Source of the DNA: Phlegmacium glaucopus
Taxonomy: Eukaryota > Basidiomycota > Agaricomycetes > Agaricales > Cortinariaceae
Length of the DNA stretch: 64,000 nt
Direction: 5' to 3'
Assembly (NCBI GenBank): GCA_015039465.1
Contig: MU130378.1
Span: 128,570-192,569, forward strand
Shown here one piece after another: positions 2,330 to 60,270 of this stretch; the first letter of the stretch is position 1, and every line of letters begins with the position of its first letter. Made by a program: the position numbers and the translations under genes. A model generated the notes under the pieces. It did no database searches. It was not told the origin of the DNA and was given only the letters and a program-made list of their open reading frames with translations.

Positions 2330-4033
2330 AGAGGGAAGCGTGTTCGCAAGGAATCTGGGTATATCAAGAGGTTGAGAGGAGGTGACGGTATAACAGGGGA
2401 GAGAGGAGTACTTCCCAAGGGTTTGCAGGGAGGATCAATACTTGAAGTAAATCTTGCGGAAGGAAGGGTTGGTGATGTGGCGATTGAAGAGTATGCGATG
2501 GCGAGTGCGCTTGGAGGTGCTGAGGGGATTGAACCCACGTATGACAAAGCTAGAAGACGTCCAGATTGGCCTAAGTGGAAGGAAGCCATCGAGATTGAGC
2601 TCAACAATCTACAAAAATCCGGCACTTACGAGCTAGTCAAGAGGCCTCCAGACGCGAATGTGGTCGACAACCGATGGGTACTTCAAATCAAAAAGAATGC
2701 CGCTGGCGAAATCGAAAAATATATAAAGCTCGATTAGTTGCAAAAGGATTCACCCAAATATACAGCATCAATTACTACAAAACCTATGCACCAGTAGCAA
2801 AACTTGCGTCCTTTTGACTACTCCTTGCACTTGCTGCTTGTAATGGTTGGCCTGTTGACACCTTCGACTTCAATTCAGCTTATTTAAATAGCCCACTGGG
2901 AGAAGGCAAAATGATATACCTTGAGCAACCACCAGGTTATGAGACGAAAGGACGAGAGTGGGTTTGGAAATTGTTGAAGACGCTGTACGAATTAAAGCAA
3001 GGTGCAAAGAACTGGTACGAGGCACTTAATCGGGCACTAAACAAATTGGGGTTTACCAGAACGGAGGCAGACCATGGGGTGTTCTTTAAGTGAGTTGGAG
3101 AGGCGGTGATAATACTGGCAATACACGTTGATGACTGTATGGTAACTGGGAGTTCGCAAAAACTCATTAACGGCTTCAAAATCGAGATGAACAAGAAATA
3201 CAAACTCACCGATCTTGGAGCAGCTCACTGGCTCCTCGGTATCAAGATCAATCGCGATCTCGTCAACAAGACCATTTCCCTATCCCAACATGCCTATATC
3301 GACTCAATAATCACCAGGTTCAACTTCAATGATTTGAAGCCCTCATTGATCCCGATAGATCCATCAGTTCCACTACTAAAATCCCAATCACCTGCCAAAA
3401 TCAAAGATATAACCAAGATGAAGAACGTACCGTATAGAGAAGTGGTTGGCTTGTTGATGTATGCAGCCATGGGTACCAGACCGGACATAGCGTTCGCAAC
3501 ATTGATGGTGGCACAATTCTCAGACAATCCTGGATGGGAGTACTGGGAAGCCGTGAAGCAGATTTTTCGCTATCTGTTGGGAACAAAGAAATTAGAGTTA
3601 ATTTACGGAGGAGAGAAAAGAGGGCTTGTGGGGTATGTGGACGCGGATGGGGCATCACAGGAACATAGACGAGTGATAACAGGGTACATTTTTATGGTGG
3701 ATGGAGGGGCTATTTTGTGGTCTTCAAAGAAGCAAGAACTGGTCACCTTATCGACGACGGAAGCCGAATACGTCGCAGCAACCCACGCCACAAAAGAAGC
3801 AGTCTGGCTCCACTGCCTTATTGGCAAACTATTCGGCTCAGTTGATACACCAACTACTTTGTTCAGCGATAGCAAGTCTGCCATCGCCTTGGCTCACGAC
3901 GGACACTACCACGCACGTACAAAACATATCGACATACGCTATCATTTTATTCGGTACATTATCGAAGCTGGAACCATCAAGCTCATTTATTGTCCTACCA
4001 ACGACATGACAGCCGACACATTAACTAAGGCGT
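2330..4033 (+). pseudogene. copia A reverse transcriptase-RNase H remnant
   Basis: Reverse transcriptase begins around 2560 (WPKWKEAIEIELNNLQ). It passes a frameshift near 2720 and TGA codons at 2815-2817 and 3091-3093, then resumes with the catalytic motif HVDDCMVTGS (about 3124-3153). RNase H follows, with VDADGASQEHRR, an SSKKQELVTLSTTEAEYVA block and KHIDIRYHFIRYI. The reading frame breaks at LTKAL (4033), where foreign sequence enters. The lost C-terminal piece (PSIKAKHFASALGL) reappears at 4934-4989 just before the purine tract. Confidence 0.9.
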
Positions 4034-4929
4034 TGATGTACCTGCGGTGGGATCAGACCGCAAGTAGTAATGTAGTTCAGAGGGGTTAATGTAGTTTTCC
4101 TCGATAGAATTTAAAGAGAAGTTCACAGTATTTAAATACGCAAGAAGAATAGGTTGCGAAGATAGTGAAGTTTGTGAATGAGAACGCAGTGCGCGAAGTA
4201 GCTTAAAGAATGAGACTATTGACTTAGAACGTTGCTGCAAAGTTTATGGGATCAAAACTCTGGCCGTCTCTTGTTCACCTTGCCTCCTACTTGCTACGGA
4301 TACTTAATACAAGAGTTGCAAACTAACCAGGTGTGGATATGCGAAACAGTAATGTAAAAATTGAGCTAATGCGAAATCACATTGACCCAATAGTTTGGTA
4401 ACGAAGGAATAGGAGACGAAATAAAAATAAAGATGATGAGTAAGGAGGTCAGTTGAATGACCTCCTGTTTCGAAAGAATGATAAAAATATATATATGGAA
4501 AGATGAAAGAAAGTAAATGCAAAACAACATGGACCATGATAAAACCAATGCACAGGATGCACGGAGAGGTAAGAAATGCGTATGCGAACCATGAAAGACC
4601 ATGAGATTAGATAGTGGCTGTGCGGAGATGCAGCTGCGAAGTGATGAAACATTTAAGTCCAATGTTGACTGAGATGCACTGAAGATATGTTGGAGTATGA
4701 AATGTGAGGAGGAATGAGGGTGCTTTGGATAGTTATGAAGGTCGTAGAAGCAATGTGCAGGGGCCATATGAGGACTATATCATGTTGTGTGAGGTGCAAA
4801 GGATGTGCAAGAACCGTGAATGCGAGTGCAAATGAAGTTGGTACCCACGAGGCATCCGCGTATACTGCGAAGTTGTTAAATCACAAAAATAACCAGTTTA
4901 CAAACCTAAAGGCTAGATGGATCCTATCA
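4034..4929. mobile_element. 896 bp insertion, LTR-like, inside copia A RNase H
   Basis: The insert starts TGATGTACC and ends GGATCCTATCA, so it has TG...CA ends with TGAT as a short terminal inverted repeat. It is flanked by GCGT on the left (4030-4033) and GTGT on the right (4930-4933), a 4-bp duplication differing by one C-to-T change. Joining the flanks puts LTKAL next to PSIKAKHF, as expected for copia RNase H. No coding sequence of its own was recognised. A solo LTR is the likeliest reading, but no second copy lies in the window. Confidence 0.6.
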
Positions 4930-44268: not shown

Positions 44269-45435
44269 TGGGTCAGCTTACAGCATACGGGGTGTTGATG
44301 ATTATAATATACATACTCTCTGACGGAGCCCGTACTAGTTTGCTCTGCTACGTGATCAAAGGTCCCAGGTAGTGATTGTCAGGGGTAATGTTACAACTTT
44401 GAACGGCTCAGAGGATTCTGGCCGTAAACAGTCGTATAGAATATCGTTCAGTCGTTCGGTGAGCTCAGAAGAATACCAAGAGATGGTTCTCGAGGCAGCG
44501 TCTTAAGAGTTTGAGAAAGTCAAGAGTAAGGTAACCGTGTTTAAGGTCTCAAGAATTAGCTAAGGTAATACAGGAGAGTAAATACGGTATTTATACTAAT
44601 AGAGAGGGTCGTGCATATAGTGAGGCGTCTGCATGTGAAACATGTTGTGTAAGTATAAATAGGTGAAACAATGAAAAGGAAAAGGTAAACATGTGTAAAA
44701 CGGATATGAATAGTAGAAGTAGGAAGGCATGGATAGTGATGCCAAAGTTCGGTTCCGAACTGGCGCAAGAACCGAGAACCGAAAGAACCGAACCGTCGGT
44801 TCAGGTTCAGTTCAGTTCGGTCCAAGAATCTTGGACCATCGGTCCGGTTCTCGGTTCGCATATTCTAAGATTTTGAGAACCGGGTTCGAACCGGTTCGAA
44901 CCGAACTTTATGTAGATTTTTTTTCTTAATTTTTCCGCATAAAATTGAATTTATAATCTATAAAATATTGTTAGGCGCCCAACCCAATGTTTTGGATTTC
45001 GGAGTTTGAAAAATCAGTGACTCCCATTATCAACAACGCTGACAACACCAACAATACCACAACCACACCAACAACGCCAACAACTCCCCACCGGGGGAGT
45101 TATTTTTGGTAAATTTCTCGATTTAATTAATGTATATGACAGTACACAGGGATGACTACCACAAGCACGGACAACAATGTCGAGCACAACGATGACAAGC
45201 ACCAGGGGCAGGTATTTTTTTTAAAATTTAATTTAAATCTAATATAAACTACTACAGACAAACGACGATTCAACAAACGACAATGAACAAACGACAACAA
45301 CGAACGCCGACAATGAATGAACGAACATGAACAAACGACGACAAATGAGAACCAGCAAACGACGACAAACGAGAACCAGCAACTTCGACATCGATCACAA
45401 AAAAAAAAAAAAAAAAAAGTTCCTGCTGCGGCCGC

Positions 45436-45600
45436 ATGCCTCTGACCATCAACGATGCTTTGGATTCAAGCTCTGAACCACCCACTTCAACATCGACCAT
45501 CAAAACAAGCACCGCCGATCCCATGCTATCCGTTCCCGCGAATGCTGTGGCTGCAAGCGCACAAATTATTCAAGTCGCTGGCAGAGCGTTCAAGATGTAG
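45436..45600 (+). pseudogene. Captured coding scrap (54 codons) in the hAT-like element
   Basis: An open frame from ATG 45436 to TAG 45598-45600 is Ser/Thr-rich, then reads DPMLSVPANAVAASAQIIQV and AGRAFKM. Balanced composition and the absence of the surrounding GAACGA repeats suggest a captured exon. I do not recognise the source; it could be another part of the same GTPase-type gene. Confidence 0.4.
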
Positions 45601-45835
45601 GCATTACTGTGAGTGTTCAGCTTCACCCATCGCATCCTTAAGCATTTAACCATCCTCATCAATCAGGCCTCCCATAAGAGCCACACCATCTCACCACGTC
45701 ACGATGACGAGCACTACCCCCTGGAGGTATGTTTTCTAAGGTATGTTTTCTAATTCTAGCTTAATTCTAATGTAAACTACAACAGACAAATGAACAAACG
45801 ATGCCAAACGACAATGACGAACGAACGCCAGGTTA

Positions 45836-46196
45836 ACTACCAAGGCTATCGATCGTTATCCCGATCCTCACCAGAAAATTCCATACAATCGTCTTGTCTG
45901 GTTTGATTATTCAGGTGCTGGCACTCCTAAAATGCCCGGGTCGCAATACTTCAACGAACAAGCCCTTTTTATTTTCGATATCGTCATCTTGGTATATGAT
46001 ACAGTAATTATTTCTATCAATTTTATCTAATGCTGGCTGACCATATCATTTGTTGTAGTGCTTCACCGAAATCGATATCTCCATCATTCGGAACTGCAAA
46101 CAATTCAAATTCCCGTTGTTCATCGTTTATTCCAAATCTGACACTCATATCCAAAACATTTTGCAAGATTTAGGCTACGACGACAATGACAAATAA
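45836..46196 (+). pseudogene. Captured IRG-type GTPase gene fragment with an intron
   Basis: Two blocks, 45836-46003 and 46059-46196, flank a 55 bp GT-AG intron that is still present. Read across it: PYNRLVWFDYSGAGTPKMPG, QYFNEQALFIFDIVILVYDT, CFTEIDISIIRNCKQF, FIVYSKSDTHIQNILQD. The WFD-x-x-GAG, FD-x-VI, DT-x-FTE and SKSD motifs match the G domain of immunity-related-GTPase-like proteins that are abundant in agaricomycetes. The P-loop exon is missing, so the fragment is not functional. The retained intron means capture was from DNA, not from a processed RNA. Confidence 0.75.
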
Positions 46197-47186
46197 GTGA
46201 CAACAACGAATAAACAAATGACGATGAACGAATGAACGACAAACAGATGGACGACGAACAAACGGACGACTGACGGATGGTGAATGATGATGAACGAATG
46301 AACGAACGACGAGCGAATGACGACGAACGAATGGACGACGAACGAACGGATGACTGACGGATGATGAATGGATGACGAACGAACGGATGACGACTTAGGG
46401 GTGTCATAAGCGACATCATGGGCCAAGGTACGCCAGCTGTGGTTCATAAAATACCTTATCATTCATTATCTTCAAGTTGACAGCTTGACCCGCGTTTTTG
46501 GAACCATCAGAGTAATCCCTGACCTATGTAGCTTGCCCACCGGCCCCACCCTCTTGGAAGGTATTTTTTTCAAATTAAAATTAATTCTAATGTACTTAAA
46601 CTACAACAGACACATGATAATGAGCAAATGGTGTTGAATGAGCATCGAGTACAACAGATGAACGACAACAGCAAACGCACGACACAACGACGGCCTACTT
46701 GTTCAACAAACGGACGACAAACAAATGGACTCGCGATGGCTGAATGAACGGCGGCGACGAATGAGTGGCAGCAAAGGCAGCAACCTGGCAGTCATTTTAT
46801 TTCTAATACCAAGCTACAATGGATGAACAACTCACTCATTTAGACACTAACCACTAGTTTGGACCCACTTAGTTTAGTTTATCAGGCTACTAGTAATAAT
46901 GTAATAATGAATAAATTACCATTGGCAATGGGGTTTTTTTTCATTGGTTCAACGGTTCAAACCGGTTCTAGAACCAAACAGAACCGACAGAACCGGTTCT
47001 TTCAGTTCCAGTTCCGGTTCTGGTTCAGTTCAGCCAGGAACCTTTCAGTTCGGTTCTCGGTTCTCCAAAAATAGTTGAAGAACCGAACTGAACCGAACTT
47101 TGGTAACACTAGGCATGGATGTGAAACAGACATGTGTTCGGTGGTGATAAGAAAAAGAAAAAGAAGTTCGTAACATTACCCCCTTT

Positions 47187-47858
47187 TTACGTCGAAGACT
47201 CCAAATTCGACTCCGATTCTAAAAACAATCCTTCTCGCTGTTCGAGTGGGCAGTGTTGCCAGCCGTGACCGTCTTCGAAACAGTTGTTACATTGCTGGTA
47301 TACGTTCGGTGGAGGAAAGTCATGGGATAAAACAATTCGTGATCCATCGCCTAAAGTGTAGCACCGCCGAGATGTGTGTCCGTCGGTGTCGCAAAGAGAG
47401 CAGTGACGTTGAACAAGAATTTCATCGTCGTCGTTGACGACAATGGGGTTAGAGCGTGATCCGGATTTGGTCGAGTCAGGAAGAGGAAGGGGAGAAAAAG
47501 ATTGTCGTCCTGGGTAAGGAGAATGTCGTCGTGTGCCAATGGGGTCGTTTCTCTTGAGTCTGATAAACGGTTCGATGTGGCAGACCAGTCTGCAACCAGC
47601 CATGTTGTCGTACAAGGTATCAGCTATTGTCTCTAGATGTTCGAGTTCCCGTTTCGCTCGTATGATAGATTGGTCAACGTGGTGAAAGTAGAGGAATTTG
47701 GTATATAAAACGGCGTCAGGTCGAAGGAAGGGCACGAGATTGTTGATGTCGTGTCTGGTCTGTACATAAGAGGAAAACTCTTTGTGGGTGAAGTCGTAAA
47801 TCGGGGTTCGGATTCAAGCAGAACGGGACGAGGAAGATGAGGATGGGGTTCGGGGCAT
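47187..47858 (-). pseudogene. Gypsy ORF3: double zinc-knuckle protein between pol and the 3' LTR
   Basis: ATG at 47858 begins a Ser-rich N-terminus, followed by TGA at 47814-47816 and then an open frame to 47187 (about 223 codons in all). It contains IYDFTHKEFSSYVQTRHDI, a helical region (QSIIRAKRELEHLETIADTL) and two CCHC-like knuckles, CSLCDTDGHTSRRC and CNNCFEDGHGWQHC. No membrane or signal segment is seen, so it is not an envelope. A nucleic-acid-binding accessory role is likely. The TGA sits where CGA would continue the frame. Confidence 0.7.
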
Positions 47859-47862
47859 GATT

Positions 47863-48054
47863 TCAGAAAGAAGGGCAGTAAATTTGAGAGTAGTTGATTT
47901 TGAAGTCAAATTTAGGGAGAGTAAAGTTGTCGTCTTTTTGCTTTTCGAGAGCGAGTCTTATATCTTCGAAATCGTCAACGATTTTGGCGATGACGTTGAT
48001 GAACTTTAAGAAGTCCTCATCGACGCATTCGTGTTGATAAGAAGTGTAGCGCAT
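47863..48054 (-). CDS. Small frame between pol and ORF3
   Basis: 63 codons in another frame, starting 15 bases after the pol stop codon and ending just before the ORF3 start. It is acidic and helical (DEDFLKFINVIAKIVDDFED). No domain recognised; it may be chance or a short accessory exon of ORF3. Confidence 0.25.
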   Translation of the reverse strand: MRYTSYQHECVDEDFLKFINVIAKIVDDFEDIRLALEKQKDDNFTLPKFDFKINYSQIYCPSF

Positions 48055-48069
48055 GTTTTCGAAGCTGTT

Positions 48070-51000
48070 CTAATTGAGGTGATGGGTTTGTTTATAAAGC
48101 GACAGCGTGTCATCTGCATTTTTGATGTGTGACTCGGGTTCCCACGTTGCTTCGGAGATTGGGTAATCTTTCCATCGGATCTTGAATTGGTATCCTCGTC
48201 CTCGTTTTCTGTGTCCAATGATCGCTTCGACTTCGTATTCTTCATTTCCGTCGACAATTTCTGCGGGTGGTTTGAGGAAATTCGGTCCGTGTACTTCGTT
48301 TTCGACGTAAGGCATGAGGAGGTATGCGTGGAAAACATTGTGAATCTTCCATGTTTCAGGGAGTTTCAATTGGTATGTGAGGGGTCCAAGGACTTTTTCG
48401 ATGGGAAATGGTCCTTCTCGTCTTGGTGCGATTTTCTTGTTGTAGTTTGTTTTTAAATTTCTGGAGTCTAACCAGACTAGTTGTCCTTCCCGGAATGGTT
48501 TAAAGTTCGATTTGATTCTGTTTTCCATTCGGTGTCTTGCTAGTTCATGTGCTGCCAGAGCTTCTTCTCGGTCTTTGATTAATTTCCATGTTCGTTCTTC
48601 AACGGCAGGGAATTGCGTGTTTTCAAATGAAAGAGGGATGGAGATTGGGGATGATCCCATGATCAATTTGAAAGGGGTTCGTGTTCTTCCGGAGTGTCTT
48701 CGGTTGTTGTGAGTGAATTCGAGTGTAGGTAAAGCGGATAACCAGTTCATTGGGTTGTCGAAGCAGTAGATTGAAAGATAAGCTTCAATTTCTTGGTTGA
48801 AACGTTCAGTTGTTCCGTCAGACTGAGGGTGAAAAGCCGTTGTCTTTGCATGTTCGATTCCAAGTAGTTTGAAAAGGTTTTCGAAAGCTTTGGCGGTGAA
48901 TCGGGGGTCTCTGTCGGAGATCATCTTGTCAGGGAGTCCAAACTGTTTGTAAAGGTTGTTGAGCAAAAATTGGGCGATGTTTTCGGAGGTACAAGTTTTT
49001 GCACAAGGGATAAGAATCACCCCCTTTGTAAGCCCGTGGTCGACCACAACCAGTACAGCATCTTTGCCGTCAATAAGCGGTAGGTCTGTAATCAGGTCCA
49101 TTGAGCAGTTCGCAAAAGGTCTAGAATCCTTTGGTCCTTCGATCGGTAAGAAACTCGGTTTTGATGGGTTTCTATTTATCTTGAACTGTTGACAATCGGA
49201 ACATCCTTTCACGTAGTTCTTCACAAAAGTACGAAGTCCAGGCCACCAGTAGTGTTGAGAGATTGAGTTATATGTCTCCAATTCTCCTGGATGTCCTGCG
49301 GTTGGTGCATCGTGGAATTGCTTCACTAATTTCTGATGAAGTTCTCGGTTCTGTGGGATGTAGTTCTTTCCTTTGTAAAACAGAATAGGTTTTCCCATGA
49401 ATTCTTCAGTCGACCAGTCTTCAAGATCGCTCCTTAAATTAGAGGGTCCTTTCTCGAGTAAAGAGCGTAATGCATCGGCGGCGTCGGTGTCTATATCAGT
49501 GGAGCCGGCAATCTGTTCCTGTAGGTCAAGGTCGACCAGATTGACAAATAAGGAGTCAGGGAGCATCATGATGTCCTCGTTGTCATTGTCATCTTTGGGA
49601 CAAAGATCAGCTCGACGGGATAGAGCGTCAGATTGGATCATTTTGTTTCCCGGTAAATGAATGAGATTAACATTGAACTCCGAGAGGAATAGCGACCATC
49701 GAGCTTGTCGTCTGTTCAATTTCTGTGCACTTCGGTAATAAGTCAAATTCTTGTGATCAGAGTAGACAGTTGTCGTATGTTCAGATCCAAGGATGTAGTG
49801 TCTCCAGTCGGTCAAGGCTCGTATGATTGCTAGGAGTTCACGATCATAGATTTCATAGTTTCGTTCGGTAGGGGAAAAGCTTTTTGACAAATAAGCCACA
49901 GGGTGTCGATCTCCGTTCATATCTGTCTGAGTAAGGACTGCGCCTGATGCGTATTTCGAAGCATCGGATTCGATTTGGAAAGGTCGAGTTGGGTCAGGCA
50001 TTCGTAAAACCGGTTCTTCAGTAAAGCATTGTTTCAGTAATTCAAAGGTTTCTTGACATTTATCGGTCCATTCGAAGGGTGTGTCTTTCTTCAAAAGATT
50101 GTTCAATGGTTGACATAAGTCAGAGAAGTGTCGGATGAATCGTCGGTAAAAGTTTCCGAATCCTAAAAAGGATCGTACTTCTTTAACAGAGGTGGGAGTT
50201 GGCCAGTCTTGGATACCCTTGAGTTTGGTTGGGTCCATAGAGATCTTGCCTTCTTCGATGATCATTCCAAGATATTCCACTTTCTTCTTATTGAATTCGC
50301 ATTTCTTTGGTTTTAAATAGAGATCGTTTTCCCGTAGATGTTGTAAGACCTTTTTCGTAATTTCTTCAAGATCCTTTTCACTCTTTGCAAAGATTAGGAT
50401 GTCGTCCATGTAGACAATGATATAGTCGCCTTCGATAAGATCTTCAAAGATAGAGTCCATCATTGCTTGGAACGTTGCCGGTGAATTGCACATTCCAAAG
50501 AACATTACTGTCGGTTCGAATAATCCTCGATTTGTTTTGAACGCAGCTTTCCATTCATCTCCTTTAGCAATCCGAACATTGTTATATCCTCTTAGGACGT
50601 CAAACTTTGTGAAACAAGTTGCGCCTTTGAGTTTGTCCATGATTTCAGTGATGAGTGGGAGTGGATAAGCATTCTTGACTGTGTGTTCGTTCAGGTATCA
50701 ATAATCTTGACAGGGTTGAAGTTTTCCGTCTTTCTTTGATACAAAAAAGAAAGGTGAAGCCATCGGGGATTTCGATTTTCGAATGTATTTTCGGTCGAGA
50801 TTCTTTCTGAGGAATTTGTCCAATTCGATTTGTTCTGCCGGTGTGAGGTTATACGTTTTGAAAGATTTCGGTTGAAAGGTCGGTTTCATTTCGATCTTGT
50901 GGTCCCAGGGTTGTTCTTCAGGAAATCTGTCCGCCTTTTTCTCATCAAATACGTCTAAATATTCATGATACTCCGGTGGTACTATTTCTTCGACAGGGAT

Positions 51001-51666
51001 GTCAGGCTTGATGTTGTATTTCATAGCCAGATCTTGTGAAGCAGAGGTTTTCGCATTGATCCAATATTTGTTGTCCATTTCGCCATTGATAAAAGCGACA
51101 AGTACTGATATTTCATCATCGTCGGTGGGGTTCTGTGTTCAATTGAGATATTCTTCAATATCGTCTTCATCTTCGACAGTAGTGGGTTTAGAGGGTGTCC
51201 TAAAAATTGGTTTCCGTGGTTGTTCTTCTTTCGTTTGTTCGGGTTTGCGCCATGTAAGGGTTTCCTTCTTCCAGTTTATTTCGGGATTGTTTTCTTTGAG
51301 CCAAGTGGCTCCAAGAATAATTTTGTGTTTCCCTAATCCAGTGACTAAAAGTCGGTTCATCTTCTTTCGTCCAAGAACACTGATCTCAAGGTTTACGTAA
51401 TGTTTGATCGTTCCTCGTTTGTTCAGGGTACTGTCGACGTTAAAAACTTTGATGGGAACTTTTAAGGTTTTGATCATAAATTTTTGTGTTCTCACGAAGT
51501 TTTGGTTGATGAATTTTCCGTCTGCGCCAGAGTCGATAAAGGCTTGTTCGATGATTTCCGAATCTTCTTGCATTTCACTCATTATAGAAATAGGTATTTT
51601 CATTCGTTGGATATTTAAACAAGGTACTAAGCAATTAGATATGGATAGCGTGGGAGAAACTGACAT
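48070..51666 (-). pseudogene. Gypsy Pol: protease-RT-RNase H-integrase-chromodomain
   Basis: One frame of 1199 codons interrupted only by TGA at 51139-51141 and 50698-50700. Protease AFIDSGADGKFIN (about 51545), retropepsin-like ILGATWLKENNP, RT entry YKRSKSP-type block (50770 region, RKSKSPMASPFFFVSKKDGK), RT core FDVLRGYNNVRI, FGMCNSPATFQ, YMDDILIF (about 50410), RNase H (SDASKYASGAVL, YEIYDRELLAI), integrase HH-CC finger (HDAPTAGHPGE, CSDCQQFK), core D-D-E (SMDLITDLP, SDRDPRF, HPQSDGTTERFN) and a C-terminal chromodomain (YEVEAIIGHRKRGRG, KWKDYP-type WKDYPISEATWEPE). The chromodomain marks it as a chromovirus that targets marked chromatin. Confidence 0.93.
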
Positions 51667-51683
51667 CGATTCAGTTCTCCGCT

Positions 51684-52286
51684 TTAAAAATCCTCATCTC
51701 CTACTTGGACAATCTGTTTGTTTTCTTCGATTCCAAGTTGAAGGTTGGTGAGCTTCTCGTGTTCGTCTTTGCTCAGTCCTTTGATCAAGGCATGGATGTC
51801 TTTGACCGTTGGTTTCTTTTGATTGTTTCTGTTGTTGTTGTTCGAGGATCCTTGGTTTTTATTTCCTTGATATCCTCCTTGTTTCTCTTTGCAGTCTCTG
51901 GAGATATGGCCGGGCTTGTCGCACTTGAAACAGAGGCCTTTGCGCATGTACTCTCCTCGCTTCTCATAACTCATTGCATCGACGTCCATGGCGTCGGGGT
52001 CGTTTCGTCGGTTTGAGGACCAGTTTCGTCCTTCATACTTTGGTTTTTCTTCTCGGTATGTTGGGTCGTAGGGTTTCTTATTCGGTTGTTCTGACTGTAA
52101 GAGCACCATGGCAAATCGGTATTGCGAATCATATTGAATCGCTCTGTTCTTCCAGCCTTTGATGGTCATGGGGACGTCGAGGGACAGTAAGATCTTTCGT
52201 GTTAAAGATGGGTTGAGGATCTTTCGAAACATCGAGACTAGATGAATGTTGTCCGATGCGGTGGTTTCTTCTAATCCGGCTTGTCT
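51684..52286 (-). pseudogene. Gypsy Gag, C-terminal part only
   Basis: The open frame runs straight out of the LTR edge (52286) and ends at 51684. It shows KRQAGLEETTASDNIH, LTRKILLSLDVPMTIKGW, a CCHC knuckle CFKCDKPGHISRDC and an Asn/Gln-rich tail. There is no leader, primer site or N-terminal capsid between the LTR and this frame, so about half of gag and the leader were lost. Gag and Pol are in different frames. Confidence 0.85.
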
Positions 52287-52637
52287 TTTGTTACAACTTT
52301 GAACGGCTCAGAGGATTCTGGCTGTAAACAGTTGTATAGAATATCGTTCAGTCGTTCGGTGAGCTCAGAAGAATACCAAGAGATGGTTCTCGAGGCAGCG
52401 TCTTAAGAGTTTGAGAAAGTCAAGAGTAAGGTAACCGCGTTTAAGGTCTCAAGAATTAGCTAAGGTAATAATACAGGAGAGTAAATACGGTATTTATACT
52501 AATAGAGAGGGTCGTGCATATAGTGAGGCGTCTGCATGTGAAACATGTTGTGTAAGTATAAATAGGTGAAACAATGAAAAGGAAAAGGTAAACATGTGTA
52601 AAACGGATATGAATAGTAGAAGTAGGAAGGCATGGAT
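52287..52637 (-). repeat. Right (5') LTR of the gypsy element, first 351 bp
   Basis: Nearly identical to 44389-44733 from TGTTACAACTTTG to GGAAGGCATGGAT, with one extra AAT near 52470. It stops abruptly at 52637. The missing last 55 bp (GTGAAACAGACATGTG ... GTTCGTAACA) exist only in mirror image at 54032-54086. Confidence 0.92.
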
Positions 52638-53489
52638 AACAAGACGTTGTGTCAAAACGACCCAACAACAGGTGAATAACAAAGGAAACGTTCATCGTTA
52701 ATAGTAGTTCGATTGGAAAGTAGTATGTCCTTCCGCTCCAAGGTTATCTTTTGATGTCACTCTCGTCTCCAATCGTAATTATAAACGCCTCCTCACGACG
52801 GTCTACCAATTCTACTCAGGAAAACCCGGTCTCTCGATCGAGATCGATCGGTGGGGAGTCTTCAACCTTACAGCCAAGGGGGTTCCATGAACCAACCCTG
52901 AAAAGTGTATAGGTCTGGAGTCTCTGAAGTCTCAACTCCTCAGTTCCTATCCACGTAACCCTCCATGAGGCCAAGTCTTACTTCAGCGTTGGTCAGCGCG
53001 GTTCCGTAATGGGTTTAGTTCTGTCGAACTCGGGACGTGTCTTTGTTTCAGATTGAGATCCCCCTGGGAAAAAAGATATGGAGTCCTGGGAAAAGGGTGA
53101 AGAGAAGGTCAAAGAGCGAGGTCTTTAGAGTGAAAGTTGAAGGTTGACAGAAAAAGTAAAAAGTGGGAGGGAAGTAGGGCTGTGAATAAAACAGGTCTAG
53201 GGTACAGCGGGATAGTGTTTGGAGACGGTAGTAAGTGCGAACAAGAATGTAGGTCAGTGGTAAGGGAAGTAGGTCGATGGTAGGTTGACAGAAACCGTTA
53301 CGAAGGTTGGCGAGGTCTAAAAAACTACCATGTGTAAACTGATTCGGACAGTGAAAACAACTAAAATTGGGTAGATAGTGGTCTGTTGGTAACTAAATAC
53401 GGTGCTAAGATGCCTACTACTTAAGCAACTCCTGGCGCTGCTCTTACAGGTAAGCGTCTGACAGAAGTTTCCTCTTGTTGGACCCTGAT

Positions 53490-54026
53490 CACTAACAGTT
53501 CCCAAAGTTTTGGGGACCTCCCAGACCCCATTCCCATACCTCCCATCCCCATTCCCAACCGTAAAACATGGGAACCTTTTGGGAATGCAAGTTCCCAAAA
53601 GTTCCCAAAAAGTTCCCAAAGTTAAAGATAAAAATTGTATTCTAAAACAGTTTTAGAATCGAAAAAGACGAAGGTTCAATATATTTAAGATGTAATAACC
53701 TAAATTATTCATATTTTAACATGTTATTTTATCTATAACGTTATAAAGGAACAAATTTTCCGTTTTTATACACTTAAACTGTATAACTCCGTCAATAGAT
53801 AAGATTTAATGTACATTATCTCGATAATTACGAACTATTCAATTTATTTTGTACCATCCATTAGTCTAGAAATATATATATTTCGGAATCTCATTATGGG
53901 AACTGGTATGGGGACATGGAAAGTATGGGGAGTTTTGGGAATGGGAATGGGAGGTTTTGGGGATGGGAACCTGTCCCCATCCCCAAACCTCCCATTCCCA
54001 TTCCCATGTCTTCAAAATGGGGTCCC
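53490..54026. repeat. Mirrored small repeat (TACCCTTACCC family)
   Basis: Written here as GGGAATGGGAATGGG-type strings and CAGTTCCCAAAGTTTTGGGG. Read backwards it contains TACCCTTACCCTTACCC and CCAGGGGTTTTGAAACCC, matching the forward repeat at about 23310-23490. It lies just outside the gypsy element's duplicated GGTAA when the block is read backwards. Confidence 0.7.
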
Positions 54027-54086
54027 AATGGACAATGCTTGAAGAAAAAGAAAAAGAATAGTGGTGGCTTGTGTACAGACAAAGTG
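54027..54086. repeat. Mirrored tail of the gypsy LTR plus target duplication
   Basis: Read backwards from 54086: GTGAAACAGACATGTGTTCG, then GTGGTGATAAGAAAAAGAAA, ending AAGTTCGTAACA (54032), then GGTAA (54031-54027). This equals 47121-47175 base for base, and GGTAA equals the left flank at 44384-44388. It is the strongest single proof that the block is reversed. Confidence 0.96.
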
Positions 54087-54111
54087 AAAAAAAAAAAAAA
54101 AAAAAAAAAAA
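54087..54111. other. Poly(A) run of 25 (3' tail of the mirrored LINE)
   Basis: Twenty-five consecutive A. Read backwards it follows the LINE 3' untranslated region (…TGTCATGTCACATTA) and precedes the interrupted LTR, as expected for target-primed insertion. If the LINE were on the minus strand in the normal way, this would read as T. Confidence 0.85.
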
Positions 54112-55084
54112 TTACACTGTACTGTATTGTGACGGTTTAGGTATTGTCCGTAACGGGTGGTGGTTCAGATCATTTCAGTGTTTGATACTGAAATGGACTG
54201 AAATGACACTGAGATGGACTGAGATGGCACTGAAATGGACTGAAGAGTAAAAATGACTCACAGTGTCCACTGTTATCGTTGCTGTTGTCTAAATCTTTCG
54301 GTTTCAACGCTTCTAGAAGATCTTCAAGACCCCAGCCTATACTTTCGTGTTGGTATTCTTTCGGAGCCCTCAAGTAGGCATGGATACGTATCCCATTTAT
54401 TCGTCTTATGTTCTGTTCTTGTACTATTGTGAGTGATACTGTAAAGAGGGCGCGTTAGCCTTTTTTCCAACCCAGTTAAACTGTGCCCGTGTATATCGTG
54501 ACGGATCTAGACCAAAGAAGTAGAATTTCTTTTAGAGATTCACTTCGTACATCTTAGACATAAAGTCAGAATAGCAACGGACATCGACCTTACAGATCTT
54601 ATCCTACATTTACTTAATTAAACGACACAATTCACGGCAGAATTTCTAGTTTTTCCGGAAGCTAGTTAATGTTCAGGTGTCTTGGTCTTGTTGGTTATGA
54701 CTTGAGTTTATGAGTTGTACAGTTTGGTGAGACTTGGTGATAGTAGGTGATTCCTTTTGTCGCCAATATGTCTTGTAGATCGAACCGTTTGCCCCACAGT
54801 GAAGGTGTTGATCATTATAGTTTATTTCATATTTCCACAAGACACCGGGTTACACCCTGAAGTCTGTAAATTGTTTGACACCTCTGCATCTACTTGACTG
54901 GTCCCTGGTATCGACTTGTTGAGGGAACTATTGGCGGAGAGTAGACCGGTCCTGTGTCTTTACATTACAAGAACCCATTACGGGATGCGTTAGGCTAGGG
55001 TCTTTATCGAAGTTACGTTCCTTTGTCGGTAAGTGCTTATCTTCCTTATGGGAGTAGCTTACGTTACCAAGGCATACTTTTTTT

Positions 55085-55170
55085 GTTAACGGATGACAGT
55101 AGTCCGGAACTCTTCAAGGGCATGATAGGGGGTGTGACTGTAAAGTCTGTAGTGGCTTTGGGAAAATTTT
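55085..55170. repeat. Mirrored end of the 43.5 kb TIR-element family
   Basis: Read backwards: TTTTAAAAGGGTTTCGGTGA, TGTCTGAAATGTCAGTGTGG, GGGATAGTACGGGAAC. The complement of 43532-43612 reads the same with few changes. It interrupts the LINE RNase H after LVDALNISLARC. Confidence 0.8.
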
Positions 55171-56768
55171 CTTAATTGTGGATCGGTTTGACTACAAGTC
55201 CCGTAGCTGTTCCGACCGGTCCGGTTCCAAAAAAAAAAGACTACACTCGACGATGACGGAACTATTTTAGGACCGATAGTCTCTTATGACTCTAGTCTTC
55301 TGCTGGATAGGACAATCTAGGGGTGTCGTCGGTGTCTAGGTAGTCGGGAGGATGGCGAAGGTACAGGGTATGACTCGTGAGAAGCAGACATGGATCGGAT
55401 ATGACCTCCTAGGATCGACCAAGTAATTACTACGGTAAGTAACCCATCATGTACTGACGGCGACGGGGCTACTTCGGCAAGACTGGTCTAGGTAACCACA
55501 TCTAAGACTATCACCGGGACAGCCGATCAAGCAGATGATTACTGAGAAGAAATGATAACCGTTACTGGCACAGTTAACCTTCAAACATCGAACCCCCGAA
55601 GCGACGGCTTCCCTATAGAAGATAGCAACAACCTAGGTTAGATTTGTCGAACTCGTCTACAACCTACAAGTAATCCACGAAAGAACGGTCAGCTGTCATC
55701 ATCAAATATCGGGCATAGTGATGACCCAATCATCCACTTTCTCTTGTCTACGTACAGTCACGGACTACTGTCTAGAAGAACTCATCTTCCAGGTACCCTT
55801 CATCTGGACGTACTCGTAGATTCTACAGTCACCCACACCACACTTTCCGGGGTTACTACCGATTCCAGCGGTAGGAGACCTCAAATGGTTTGAGGACTTC
55901 TCGGAAATGGTTGGGACACAAGGTAGAGAATGGGACGAGAACCATACCACCGTATATGGTCCGTAGGTCTGGTATCCAGTAGAATCCCTGACGTTGACAC
56001 TATATATCTGCAGAGTACTTGAAACGGCTATCTGGACTTTAACTGAAACAATCAGCGGACATTTCATCTCAGGTGAACCATCGGAACCTCTAGCGAAGTA
56101 CTCAGACGTAAAAGGTCAACTCGACTGATAGGTGCATCTAAGACTCTATGAACATCCGGTAGAGATGGGCATGGTGGAGAGGAAACTCAAATTCATGACC
56201 GCGGAGGTTTGACTGACACACTGGACCAGCACAACCTAGACCCTGAGAGAAGATCCACTTCACCCAATGACGGTTGAACAGATCTCACTTTGTCCTCAAC
56301 ACCCACAGGCTGGTTCGTTTCGGGGGAAACAGGTGAGAGGAGATCTGATAGCGGGAGACGGTAGCGTTCTCGTAGTAGATACTTAGGGTCCCTGAGAAGG
56401 AGACCCGAAAACCGTTAAAGTTAGTCCAGTCGCAACATCTACTACATATTGTCGTAACTCTCCCCCAGAGGAACCGGATAGGGTAAGCTCTACACCTATT
56501 CGAGATTTTCTTTCAGTAGTTTCGAGTACACACACGTAGACGGACAATTGTCAACGAATTATTTCGTTTGTATCTGAAAACCTTAGGAGGAGGAAACCTC
56601 CAATACTTACTCAGACAGTCAGTGACGTAAACCTTTACGGAGGAGGTACAGTTCTTTTTCTTGACTCTGATGAAATGGGACGGAGGTACGACAGAACTAG
56701 AATAACTGGTCGCACACCTGGCGTAGACAGTAATAGGTGGGACCGGATGGAGGTTTCACCGACAGACC

Positions 56769-57189
56769 CTCCTGACATGTGAGGGGGTGTATGAGGCCGT
56801 TTTAGGTGACCTGAGACCGTGATTTAAGGCCACCTGAGGTCGTCTGAAACCGTCTGAGTTCAGGATTTGACACACTTACAATGTACCCTGTTTAAAGTTA
56901 AAACTCAGGTGGTCTCAGGTACCTGAGACCACCTGAGAATGGTCTGATTCAGGTCGTCTGAGGTAACCTGATCAGACCGCCTGAGACCACCTTAGATTAT
57001 TTTAACCTGTGTACTATGGAAGGATTGGAATTGTTGGGATTGTCTTGGGATTGTCTTGGGATTGTCTTGGGATTGTCTTGGAATTCTCTCACCTCAGGTC
57101 ATACACTGTCCCTCAGTGTTTACTCAGTGTTTACTCAGACCACCTCAGGTCACCTCAAGTCGCCTCATACACCCCCTGACATTTCATGT
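56769..57189. mobile_element. Mirrored small TIR transposon (421 bp) in the LINE
   Basis: Read backwards, its inverted ends include ACAGTCCCCCACATACTCCG and CGGAGTATGTGGGGGAGTGT. The target CCAGACAGC is duplicated (9 bp; 57198-57190 and 56768-56760). Removing it with one duplicate restores LLPDSHFGGRPG in the LINE. It also contains ACTCCACT-type repeats and a TTAGGGTTCTG run. A normal-orientation terminus of the same family is at 62800-62827. Confidence 0.85.
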
Positions 57190-58289
57190 CGACAGACCGT
57201 CGTCTGAAAGGCAAAGGTGGTATAAGTTCTATAGAAGACGTTAATACCGTCACTCATGAAAACGGTCCCATGTGTCCTCCCGCTATCCAGTCACCCGGAA
57301 CCCCTAGAGTATCAGTCCAAAGGGACCGAACGTGTCCTGATGGCACCACATAAAGAAGGTCCATAGTTACATCTCCGGATCAGACTACTATCGGGCCATC
57401 TACATCAGGTTCATCAGGAGCTATTACAACTACCAGAAGACTTCATGATACAAGGCATAAGGCAGACCAGGTGAACGAAATATTCCACTTTCTCTGAACT
57501 AGACTGCGACTTAAACTAGAAACCTCTAACGGTCACCCCACCCTTCACCGAGACCCATAACCTTCAACTGACCCTGACAACTGAGACGACCGAACCCTCC
57601 TTTCTTTTAAAATACTTTTTGAAGACGAAAGAGGAGTAAGCACCGTTGGAGAACATGACATGGTAGAAGAACGCGGTGGAACTCGTACCCCTACACTCTG
57701 GACGGGGGTAGAGGATGGCCGAGAGATTCCATAGTTAAATGGTAAGTCTCCAGAAACCGGCTCCGGAGAAGTTACTTCAGGTAGGTCACAAAGACGAAAC
57801 GAAGGTACTACCGGAGCGGCATCCGGACTCGTCTCTCGGATGTAAAAAGTACTGTCTCCACCACTCCCTGACGAGATACAAAGTAACAAAACACTGAATC
57901 GAACAAGTTGAAGAAAAAGTCAGGGACGTCTAGTGATAAGGTGGTTACGAAACTTACCCCTGTTCCGAACGACTAGGCTTGGACGAGGGACTAGCAGAAG
58001 ACTTAGTGAAGTTAATCCAAATAACGGCGGACGACTTCAAGGAGTAGACAAAACTCACCTCGACCCTCGCGATAAAGAAACTCCAAATAGTCGTCGACGA
58101 GGACCGCCAAATGCGTGACAAAGTGTGAAACACTTGAAACATAGCTTGCTCACTCAGTTCTGCATCATTTTGGATGATTTCTTTTGTATCATAAATGTAT
58201 TATAGCATCATGTGAACATATATTGAATGAATTTTTATGATATAAATAGTGGTTGTGTGGTTTTTTGAGGTGGCTATGCTTTCTTTGTC

Positions 58290-59470
58290 TGGTGGGCTGA
58301 AACTTCTAAGCAATATAACACTTCAATTATTTATTTCTGCAACATGTTTTGGTGATGTGAAATTCTCTACCATGTATTTTAAATATTTCTCAGCAGTTAT
58401 TTTATTTTATTACACACACAGGACCCTACAAATGAGCAATTTCTACCCAAGTCCCTGCTAAAATGCCATTTTTTCAGCTTCCAGCCAATAGAACACTTCA
58501 GAAATGGGTTTATGTAACTTGTCTTGGTGATGTGAAATGATCTAATATATATTTTAAATATTTATCAGCAGTTATATTGTTTTATTTCACACCCAGGCCC
58601 TTATAAATGAACAGTTTCCACACAAATTCCTGCTAAAATGCAGTGTTGGCAACTTCTATCCTATAGAACACTTCTAAAACTGGTTTATGTAACTCATATT
58701 ACTGACATAAAATACTATACTATGTATTATGAACATCTCTCAGGAGTTAGAATTTTTTATTTCACACTCAAGCCCTTAAAAATGAGTGAGCTGGTGGCAG
58801 TTCCAATCCAAATTTGAAACTTCCAACCTATAGAACTGTTCATAAACTGCACTTTGTAGCTATTCCTGTACCAAAAATTGTCTATGGTGTGTCAAAAATA
58901 TTCCTCAGGAGTTTCTTTATTTTATTTCACACTTAGAACCCTACAATTAAGCAAACCCCACCCAAATCCCTGCTAAATTGCAATTTTTAAGACTTCCAGC
59001 CTATAGAACTCTTCAGAAACTGGGTTCTGCAGCCTATCATAGTGACAAAATATACTCTACCATATATTCTCAACATTTCTTAGGAGTTAGATTTTTTTAT
59101 TCTGCTTTTAACCCCTCACAACTGAGTGATCTTCAGCCAATTTCATCCACAGTGTGATGTTTGAGACTTCCAACCTATAGAACACTTAATAAACTAGTTT
59201 CTGTAACTCATCTTGGTGATAATAAATGCTCTACAATGTATCCTAAACATTCCTCAGGAGTCTGATCATCTGATTTTACATGTTGAGCTTAATAAAACAA
59301 GGGATATCAAGCCAATGCTAGCCAAATTGATGGCTGAAGTTTCTAAGGAATAGAACTCTTCAACAACTCATTTCCGGGATGTGCTTTGGTGGGAGAATAT
59401 GTTATAATTTAGATTATGAACATTTTGTTGAGAGTGGAATTTTTAATTTCATGCTCTAAGTATGAGATAC
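58290..59470. repeat. Satellite-like array, about 173 bp period
   Basis: Unit boundaries, placed at the TAACT(T/C)-like start, fall at 58515, 58690, 58857, 59030, 59203 and 59379, giving spacings of 175, 167, 173, 173 and 176 bp. Each unit contains a TTTAT(T)TTCACAC block, AACTTCCA(A/G)CC(T/A)ATAGAAC and CTCAGGAGTT in order. Units are diverged. There is no coding capacity. Confidence 0.8.
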
Positions 59471-59637
59471 TGGGTGGTAAGAGCCCATATCTCATACTTG
59501 GGGCATGAAATTAAAAATTCTACTCCCAACAAAATGTTAAGAATATAAAATACAACATATTCTCCCACCAAAACAAATCCCAGAAATGAGTGTTTGAAGA
59601 GTTCTATACCTTAGAAGTTTCAGCCATCAATTTGGCT
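59321..59637. repeat. Inverted repeat of about 149 bp arms closing the satellite
   Basis: Arm 59321-59469 and its complement 59488-59637 are separated by 18 bp. The pair includes GCCAAATTGATGGCTGAAG and CTTCAGCCATCAATTTGGC-like ends, and TAAGTATGAGATA/TATCTCATACTT at the centre. The arms differ at scattered sites. The last satellite unit has therefore been copied in inverted orientation, giving a possible hairpin. Confidence 0.85.
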
Positions 59638-59689
59638 GGGGAAACATGTGTCCAGACACAACAGCACAAATTCACAAATTTTTATTTAT

Positions 59690-60270
59690 TGTAGCTGATT
59701 CACATCCTATTTATATGGATATACATCACTGAAAGTCCCCTCTGGGAGTGTTGTACAGAGAGGGAGCTCAGTGTCTCAGTTTCTGAGATGTGACATATGT
59801 GTGACACATGCCAAGCCAGATGTCACAGGTGACAGGCATTGCCCACCACCACTAGACTAAATTACAAAAATTTTGACTACCACATGACTATGAAATTGAT
59901 GAACACAAGGTCGACTAGTCATATGTTTTTAAAATGGCTCTAATTGGAATTTTGGGTCTCAAGACGGTCAGATTCTGGTCTCAAATTAAAAACCAGTTTA
60001 GTCAGCATTGGCACAACCTTGCCATTGAGCTAAGTTGTAGTTACTATTACTTACTATTAGTACATTAGTGACATTACATATTATAGCAATGATTGATGCA
60101 TCAAAATGATCAATGACTTTGCACCAACTTTTGATTAACAGTGAACACCAATTTTAGTAGTCATGTAAGTGTCAAAAAATTTGTCATTTAGTCAGGTACG
60201 TGACTTTTGCTTGACTTTTGCCCATCTTTCATGTGACTATTACATGACTTACATGACTTCTTGTTTTTAC
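59690..60270 (-). repeat. LINE 3'-UTR-like fragment
   Basis: On the minus strand, GTGGTGGTGGGCAATGCCTGTC (complement of 59829-59850) with neighbouring CTAGTGGTGG matches the 3' end of the mirrored LINE read backwards (CTTGGTGGTGGGCAATGCCTG, just before its poly(A)). Repeated TGACTTTTG/ACATGACT strings to 60270 resemble the GACTTTAC repeats of that tail. No protein part is seen. Confidence 0.5.

Follow-up and report, generated by a model that had tools for sequence, protein, structure and literature searches.

The window analysed here is a stretch of 64,000 nucleotides from the fungus Phlegmacium glaucopus, corresponding to positions 128570-192569 of contig MU130378.1 (C144 in this work) in an assembly of 60.5 Mb and 259 contigs. 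Between positions 52638 and 58105 of this window, the sequence is written in reversed order without being complemented. The mirrored stretch is made of two pieces, each reversed in place, with a run of exactly 25 A (A25) between them. Runs of this exact length are abundant in the assembly and strongly biased toward one strand, and mirrored sequence recurs at other loci. On the basis of sequence comparisons, this stretch is best understood (probability of about 0.92) as the trace of a failed gap closure in the draft assembly, in which a gap filler would have written its extensions reversed and non-complemented. The initial annotation of this DNA had described a single mirror-image block of 5.5 kb, extending from 52638 to 58141. 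The mirrored string and the left edge at 52637|52638 are both confirmed by the present analysis; the block, however, resolves into two pieces around the A25 run, and the right edge lies at 58105|58106 rather than at 58141. The mirrored string belongs to the assembly itself, since a fetched locus (L001) is identical, letter for letter, to window positions 55500-60200 and an A25 run is listed at the corresponding place of contig C144.

Two pieces reversed in place

The coordinates of the two pieces, of the marker that separates them and of the associated features are collected in Table 1.

Table 1. Features of the mirrored stretch and its borders (window coordinates)
Feature	Position	Strand	Evidence or remark
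Piece A (1,449 bp), in-place reversal, non-complemented	52638..54086	.	Probable extension of the left contig end; alignment to C161, k-mer score
Gap marker, exactly 25 A	54087..54111	+	Run length; assembly-wide run counts; absent at the junctions of relatives
Piece B (3,994 bp), in-place reversal, non-complemented	54112..58105	.	Probable extension of the right contig end; alignments to C209, L003-L008 and C161
Return to normal sequence: head of a multi-copy repeat; its true upstream neighbour lies mirrored at 54112	58106..60194	+	
Right long terminal repeat (LTR) of a Gypsy element, visible part	52289..52637	.	98.3% identity over 350 aligned positions to 44389-44735; stops at the left edge of piece A
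Last 55 bp of the right LTR, mirrored	54032..54086	.	Read backwards, equals 47121-47175, then GGTAA
229-codon open frame, reversed reading	56193..56879	.	Reverse transcriptase domain of a non-LTR retrotransposon; RVT_1, R2-type PDB chains, 336/432 proteins
356-codon open frame, reversed reading	55184..56251	.	Carries the RNase H-like motif quoted in the initial annotation

Read backwards, positions 52638-54086 align with contig C161 at 97.8% over 1,438 columns, directly adjacent to the LTR that ends at 52637 in the window. The adjacency 52637|54086 is present in this contig without any A run. The same junction is visible within the window, where 55 bp beyond 52637|54086, at 100% identity, prolong the right LTR of the Gypsy element up to its terminal GTAACA. 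The target duplication GGTAA (5 bp) is found both after this completed right LTR and before the left LTR (44384-44388), so that the missing LTR end and its target duplication, which had been placed in the mirrored block by the initial annotation, are indeed there.

Most of a long interspersed nuclear element (LINE) lies in piece B, at about 55200-58105; the remaining positions, 54112 to about 55198, hold part of a second repeat. The outer junction of piece B is documented by the relatives of the repeat that starts at 58106. In six other copies of this right repeat (L003-L008), 51-53 bp matching the reversed 54112-54164 at 96-100% directly precede the counterpart of base 58106. In C161 (L002), the match to reversed piece B upstream of this counterpart continues for 1,087 bp at 93.7%. 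The reversed 55174-58105 matches contig C209 at 99.76% over 2,932 bp, and the complement-only string of 57194-58105 matches the same contig at 100% over 912 bp. The only as-written match to 57000-58100 is the window copy itself, among the 40 scored of 131 candidates.

Each piece behaves independently and has an outer junction of its own, A and B being reversed separately here and mirroring often being one-sided elsewhere. In addition, the new sequence flanks a residual marker of fixed length, as A25 stands between A and B and belongs to an assembly-wide spike of runs at exactly 25. The sharp mirrored edges of the two pieces suggest that they are insertions. Two simpler operations were considered and rejected. 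The reversal of 52638-58141 as a single block would set 52637 beside the right end of this block and 52638 beside the right flank, in contradiction with the continuity of the LTR and with the relatives, while complementation in place would leave the outer edges of each piece unable to join. As each piece was reversed on its own, a wrong sequence would result if the whole stretch were un-mirrored in one go.

Coding content of the mirrored reading

When the four possible readings of the string are compared, the three peptides quoted in the initial annotation are present only in the reversed, non-complemented one. The longest open frames of this mirrored reading reach 356 and 229 codons, whereas those of the two normal strands have 91 and 124. 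In the complement-only string, the opposite strand of the mirrored molecule, there is one open frame of 191 codons. The 229-codon frame matches the Pfam family RVT_1 (1.9e-8) and R2-type retrotransposon chains of the PDB (best 1.6e-4), as well as 336 of 432 candidate proteins at E<=1e-3 (best 1.7e-63). On its mirrored reading, piece B therefore carries the LINE/R2-type reverse transcriptase domain of a non-LTR retrotransposon. No Pfam family was found at E<=0.01 for the as-written frames tested (9 of the 11 listed, four on the plus and five on the minus strand), nor at this threshold for the 356-codon and 147-codon mirrored frames. For the frames tested, these results agree with the claims that the reverse transcriptase can be read from right to left only and that the two normal directions give nothing. 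The RNase H is putative: the quoted motif lies in the 356-codon mirrored frame, which is without a Pfam family at the threshold given above.

Composition and k-mer asymmetry

The dinucleotide ratios expected to be swapped in a mirrored block were found to be so. As written, the CG/GC ratio is 2.05 in piece A and 2.25 in piece B, versus 0.86 in the rest of the window, although a high CG/GC ratio alone is not diagnostic, as the neighbouring Gypsy element shows one too. The TA/AT ratio is 1.03 and 1.20 in the two pieces, versus 0.74 in the rest of the window. The LINE provides a direct comparison, its CG/GC ratio being 0.38 in the normal copy of C209 versus 2.57 in the window copy as written. The 6-mer score shifts across the block together with TA/AT, although as written it is near zero or positive in the windows from 53501 to 54500. 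The score of piece A is negative as written and positive when read backwards. The edges were nevertheless taken from alignments, because the 6-mer segmentation blurs them by tens to hundreds of bases (it placed the left edge at 52170).

The run of 25 A

The number of exact A runs in the whole assembly, on the forward and reverse strands respectively, is 1 and 1 for 23 A, 0 and 1 for 24 A, 157 and 1 for 25 A, and 72 and 1 for 26 A. Natural poly(A) is expected on both strands and with a spread of lengths. A fixed filler of 25 bases, with an occasional neighbouring A, accounts for the pattern observed. From the ratio 157/72, which corresponds to a chance of about 0.23 for a neighbouring A, the total number of markers in the assembly is estimated at roughly 265. 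A further exact A25 run is located at C144:196453-196477, about 3.9 kb past the right end of the window.

The A run is mirror-symmetric and could by itself be assigned to either piece; the relatives place it between the two. It is absent at the matching junctions of C161 and of the other copies of the right repeat. The initial annotation had taken the run at 54087-54111 for a poly(A) tail. The homology of the LINE to C209 stops near 55174-55200 and, because the LINE ends more than 1 kb from the A run, the latter is not its poly(A) tail. This assignment was rejected on these three grounds, namely the distance to the end of the LINE, the relatives devoid of the run and the run counts, which fit a gap marker.

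Recurrence in the assembly

Matches to the mirrored head of the right repeat (83-99% identity over 58-68 bp) were found at seven other loci. Mirrored stretches were called by the 6-mer segmentation in all seven, and direct alignment at a minimum of 84% identity recovered a mirrored piece in five of them (L019-L023) and none in L024 and L025. The marker is A25 in four of these loci, A27 in one and a run of N in two. At L020, the mirrored block begins at the base after the A25 and its reversal in place joins repeat positions 58519|58520 exactly; at L019, at most 2 bp separate the block from the marker, and the reversal joins 58686|58688. The mirrored piece of L023 adjoins its N run, and the mirrored signal of L024 near an N run is weak. 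Because the defect recurs mostly beside a 25-A run or an N gap, it points to a systematic gap-filling error rather than to a single planted block. The two in-place reversals and this recurrence strongly support the proposal of the initial annotation that the sequence was reversed in software; nothing in the data favours its alternative, a reversal on purpose.

For an unselected test, the two flanks of 30 A25 runs were scored. These runs are the first 30 in the list of 158 exact matches, taken regardless of mirroring; the comparison set was made of held-out normal windows, with exclusion of the all-N windows of L059. With windows of 500 bp, 17 of the 60 sides scored below zero and 12 below -8, versus 20 and 5 of the 290 held-out normal windows. 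The corresponding counts with windows of 300 bp were 13/60 and 11/60, versus 49/481 and 12/481. The mirrored share of A25 sides, calculated from the mean shift, is 25% (13-38%) with 500 bp and 20% (6-35%) with 300 bp. The score is negative on both sides at one of the 30 loci, and on one side only at 15 (500 bp) or 11 (300 bp). As negative scores are mostly one-sided and a minority, mirroring acts per side and most sides are normal.

Known protein families were found in a mirrored reading at two of these 30 loci. The mirrored reading of L028 gives an ankyrin-repeat protein (PF00023, 6.8e-48) and that of L056 a Copia reverse transcriptase (PF07727, 6.5e-46), while the longest as-written frame of each strand at these two loci gave no match above the Pfam cut-off (three matches of L028 fell below it, the best at 4.6e-4). 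When a 1-kb repeat piece of L037 was used as query, 1,687 first-look candidates were obtained with the un-mirrored sequence versus 94 with the sequence as written (40 scored each). Of the as-written matches fetched, L062 scores clearly mirrored and L063 weakly; the un-mirrored matches (L061, L064) have positive scores at their ends and scores near zero or slightly negative in the middle of the stretch.

As a control for chance, the window was cut into 64 tiles of 1 kb and compared with the loci fetched by then, except L001, a set enriched for the mirroring defect. The five tiles that lie wholly within the block (53001-58000) have mirrored matches only, with the exception of 54 bases in one of them. 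Outside 52001-59000, 21 tiles have more than 60 matched bases, 13 of them as written only and 8 both ways. The latter are expected if other fetched loci carry the same defect.

Proposed origin and alternative explanations

The following sequence of events is proposed. In the draft assembly, a first contig would have ended at 52637 and a second one would have begun at 58106, both inside transposons. A gap filler would have added 1,449 bp (A) to the end of the left contig and 3,994 bp (B) to the start of the right one. The two extensions could presumably not be joined, and a residual gap of 25 bases would have been left, which now reads as 25 A. Both extensions would have been written reversed and non-complemented, either through the complementation of a minus-strand extension that was never reversed or through the wrong reversal of a plus-strand one. 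Reversing a string in place gives the same letters as taking the correct minus-strand sequence and complementing it without reversal. A filler using reads of either strand and omitting half of the reverse-complementing step would consequently produce mirrored extensions beside correct ones. The agent would then be a gap filler with a strand-handling bug, probably PBJelly or a similar program.

Several observations sit uneasily with this proposal. Long-read indel errors are not evident in piece A when compared with C161 (3 indel events in 1,438 columns) or in the LINE part when compared with C209 (1 in 2,902); versus C161, the rest of B has 11 in 1,048 columns and the right flank 2 in 3,895. 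These comparisons do not separate read error from true divergence, and errors might have been removed by consensus or by later polishing. The marker is written as A while the larger gaps of the assembly remain N, which requires an extra unexplained step. Of the 7 N runs seen, only that of L023 is clearly mirrored at its edge, and that of L059 weakly. The mirrored share of 20-25% is well under the 50% of a pure strand coin-toss, most marker sides being normal, although sides without extension would lower it below this value. L063 (C138:164500-165400) is mirrored without any exact A25 or A26 listed nearby, so that some mirrored pieces lie away from a marker; this locus is perhaps a fully closed gap or contains a longer A run. 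Finally, no report of a gap filler inserting reversed, non-complemented sequence was found among the titles and abstract beginnings listed by searches of open-licence articles of PMC.

The extra step implied by the A letters would suit an artefact of the same class produced elsewhere in the processing, by consensus or polishing, by a scaffolder or by a format conversion. This origin is improbable. In the window and at L019, L020 and L022, each mirrored piece is bounded by the marker on one side and by the return of native sequence on the other, outer side; the extension of flanks explains such pieces directly, whereas steps acting on whole contigs do not. The deliberate reversal of one block, for use as a planted control or a watermark, is still far less credible. 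Mirrored DNA does serve as a sequencing control (PMC6430799), but the defect is seen again at other loci where the repeats are diverged, and at gap markers; moreover, the stretch contains two separate reversals, and L001 shows that the assembly itself contains the string.

A natural rearrangement, whether by inversion, template switching or the biology of palindromes and mirror repeats, can be practically dismissed. Short natural mirror repeats do exist, and a mirror-symmetric 15-mer is present at 58118-58132, just beyond the right edge. A normal inversion, however, would read correctly on the minus strand, where the five frames tested are without a Pfam family. The tiles at 53001-58000, too, match the fetched loci on neither normal strand, the 54 bases excepted. 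Every known form of copying is antiparallel. A published figure for the human genome is that 133 reads of a 732-million paired-end library, simulated from its reversed sequence, aligned to the normal genome (PMC6430799). The failed gap closure is retained as the most likely explanation of the mirrored stretch.

Transposons around the proposed gap

The Gypsy element is an LTR retrotransposon with a chromodomain, located on the minus strand and covering 44389-52637 plus the mirrored 54032-54086. Its left LTR is interrupted by about 2.4 kb (roughly 44740 to 47110), and the end of its right LTR is hidden in the mirrored piece. After un-mirroring, the missing 5' end of the LINE falls at the marker, and the sequence of C209 continues upstream of this point; the missing part is best explained by the extension stopping at the marker. 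Contig C161 (L026, 19.5 kb) shows 99.3% identity to the right flank of the gap, and its end falls within the same LTR. This contig may represent an allele or a duplicate of the locus, with other sequence where the window has the LINE. The repeat at 58106-60194, copies of which are spread over many contigs, contains internal units about 175 bp apart and has matches at the 40 scored of 131 candidate places. Finally, a Copia-type reverse transcriptase fragment (RVT_2, 9.7e-17) is found at 3094-4086.

Implications

The mirrored stretch is most likely not a real biological feature, and its usefulness is that of a data-quality finding. The annotation of such stretches as written is meaningless, and gene callers, repeat maskers and searches limited to the two normal strands will see "unique" or "orphan" DNA over ordinary transposons and genes. 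The signature of the defect, a one-strand homopolymer spike at one exact length coupled to a flip in k-mer asymmetry, allows other assemblies to be screened, and DNA without a homologue in any frame should be searched in reversed order before being called new. There is an even chance that public hybrid assemblies other than this one are affected as well, through a strand-handling bug, so far unreported, of a long-read patching pipeline in wide use. If so, genes and transposons would be hidden in these assemblies beside a marker of fixed length, and could be found by a one-strand spike of exact-25 A (or N) runs together with a mirrored k-mer score.

Comparison with known systems

The closest counterpart of the mirrored LINE is the copy of C209, with 99.86% identity over 2,902 aligned columns to the window copy read from right to left; the two differ in the order in which they are written. 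The operation itself, a reversed order without complement, is the one used for chiral (mirrored) DNA reference standards (PMC6430799). These standards are deliberate synthetic controls, whereas the stretch of the window is most likely an unintended product of assembly.

The proposed process has its nearest parallel in PBJelly, which defines a gap as 25 or more N, extends both of its flanks, splices the consensus in and leaves N where the gap was only reduced (PMC3504050). The gaps that it calls "overfilled" are those with extensions that do not overlap (PMC3504050). This program has been applied to fungi, as hybrid ALLPATHS-LG assemblies were patched with it in one large study (PMC7550596). 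Two differences are apparent: the extensions are here reversed without complement, and the marker is made of A rather than N. The part of the PBJelly description consulted mentions no such error and does not state that an overfilled gap is output as 25 bases (PMC3504050). The likeness lies in the two non-overlapping extensions of contig ends in a captured gap, in the residual gap between them and in the threshold of 25 N (PMC3504050), and PBJelly-type patching fits as the source of the mirrored extensions.

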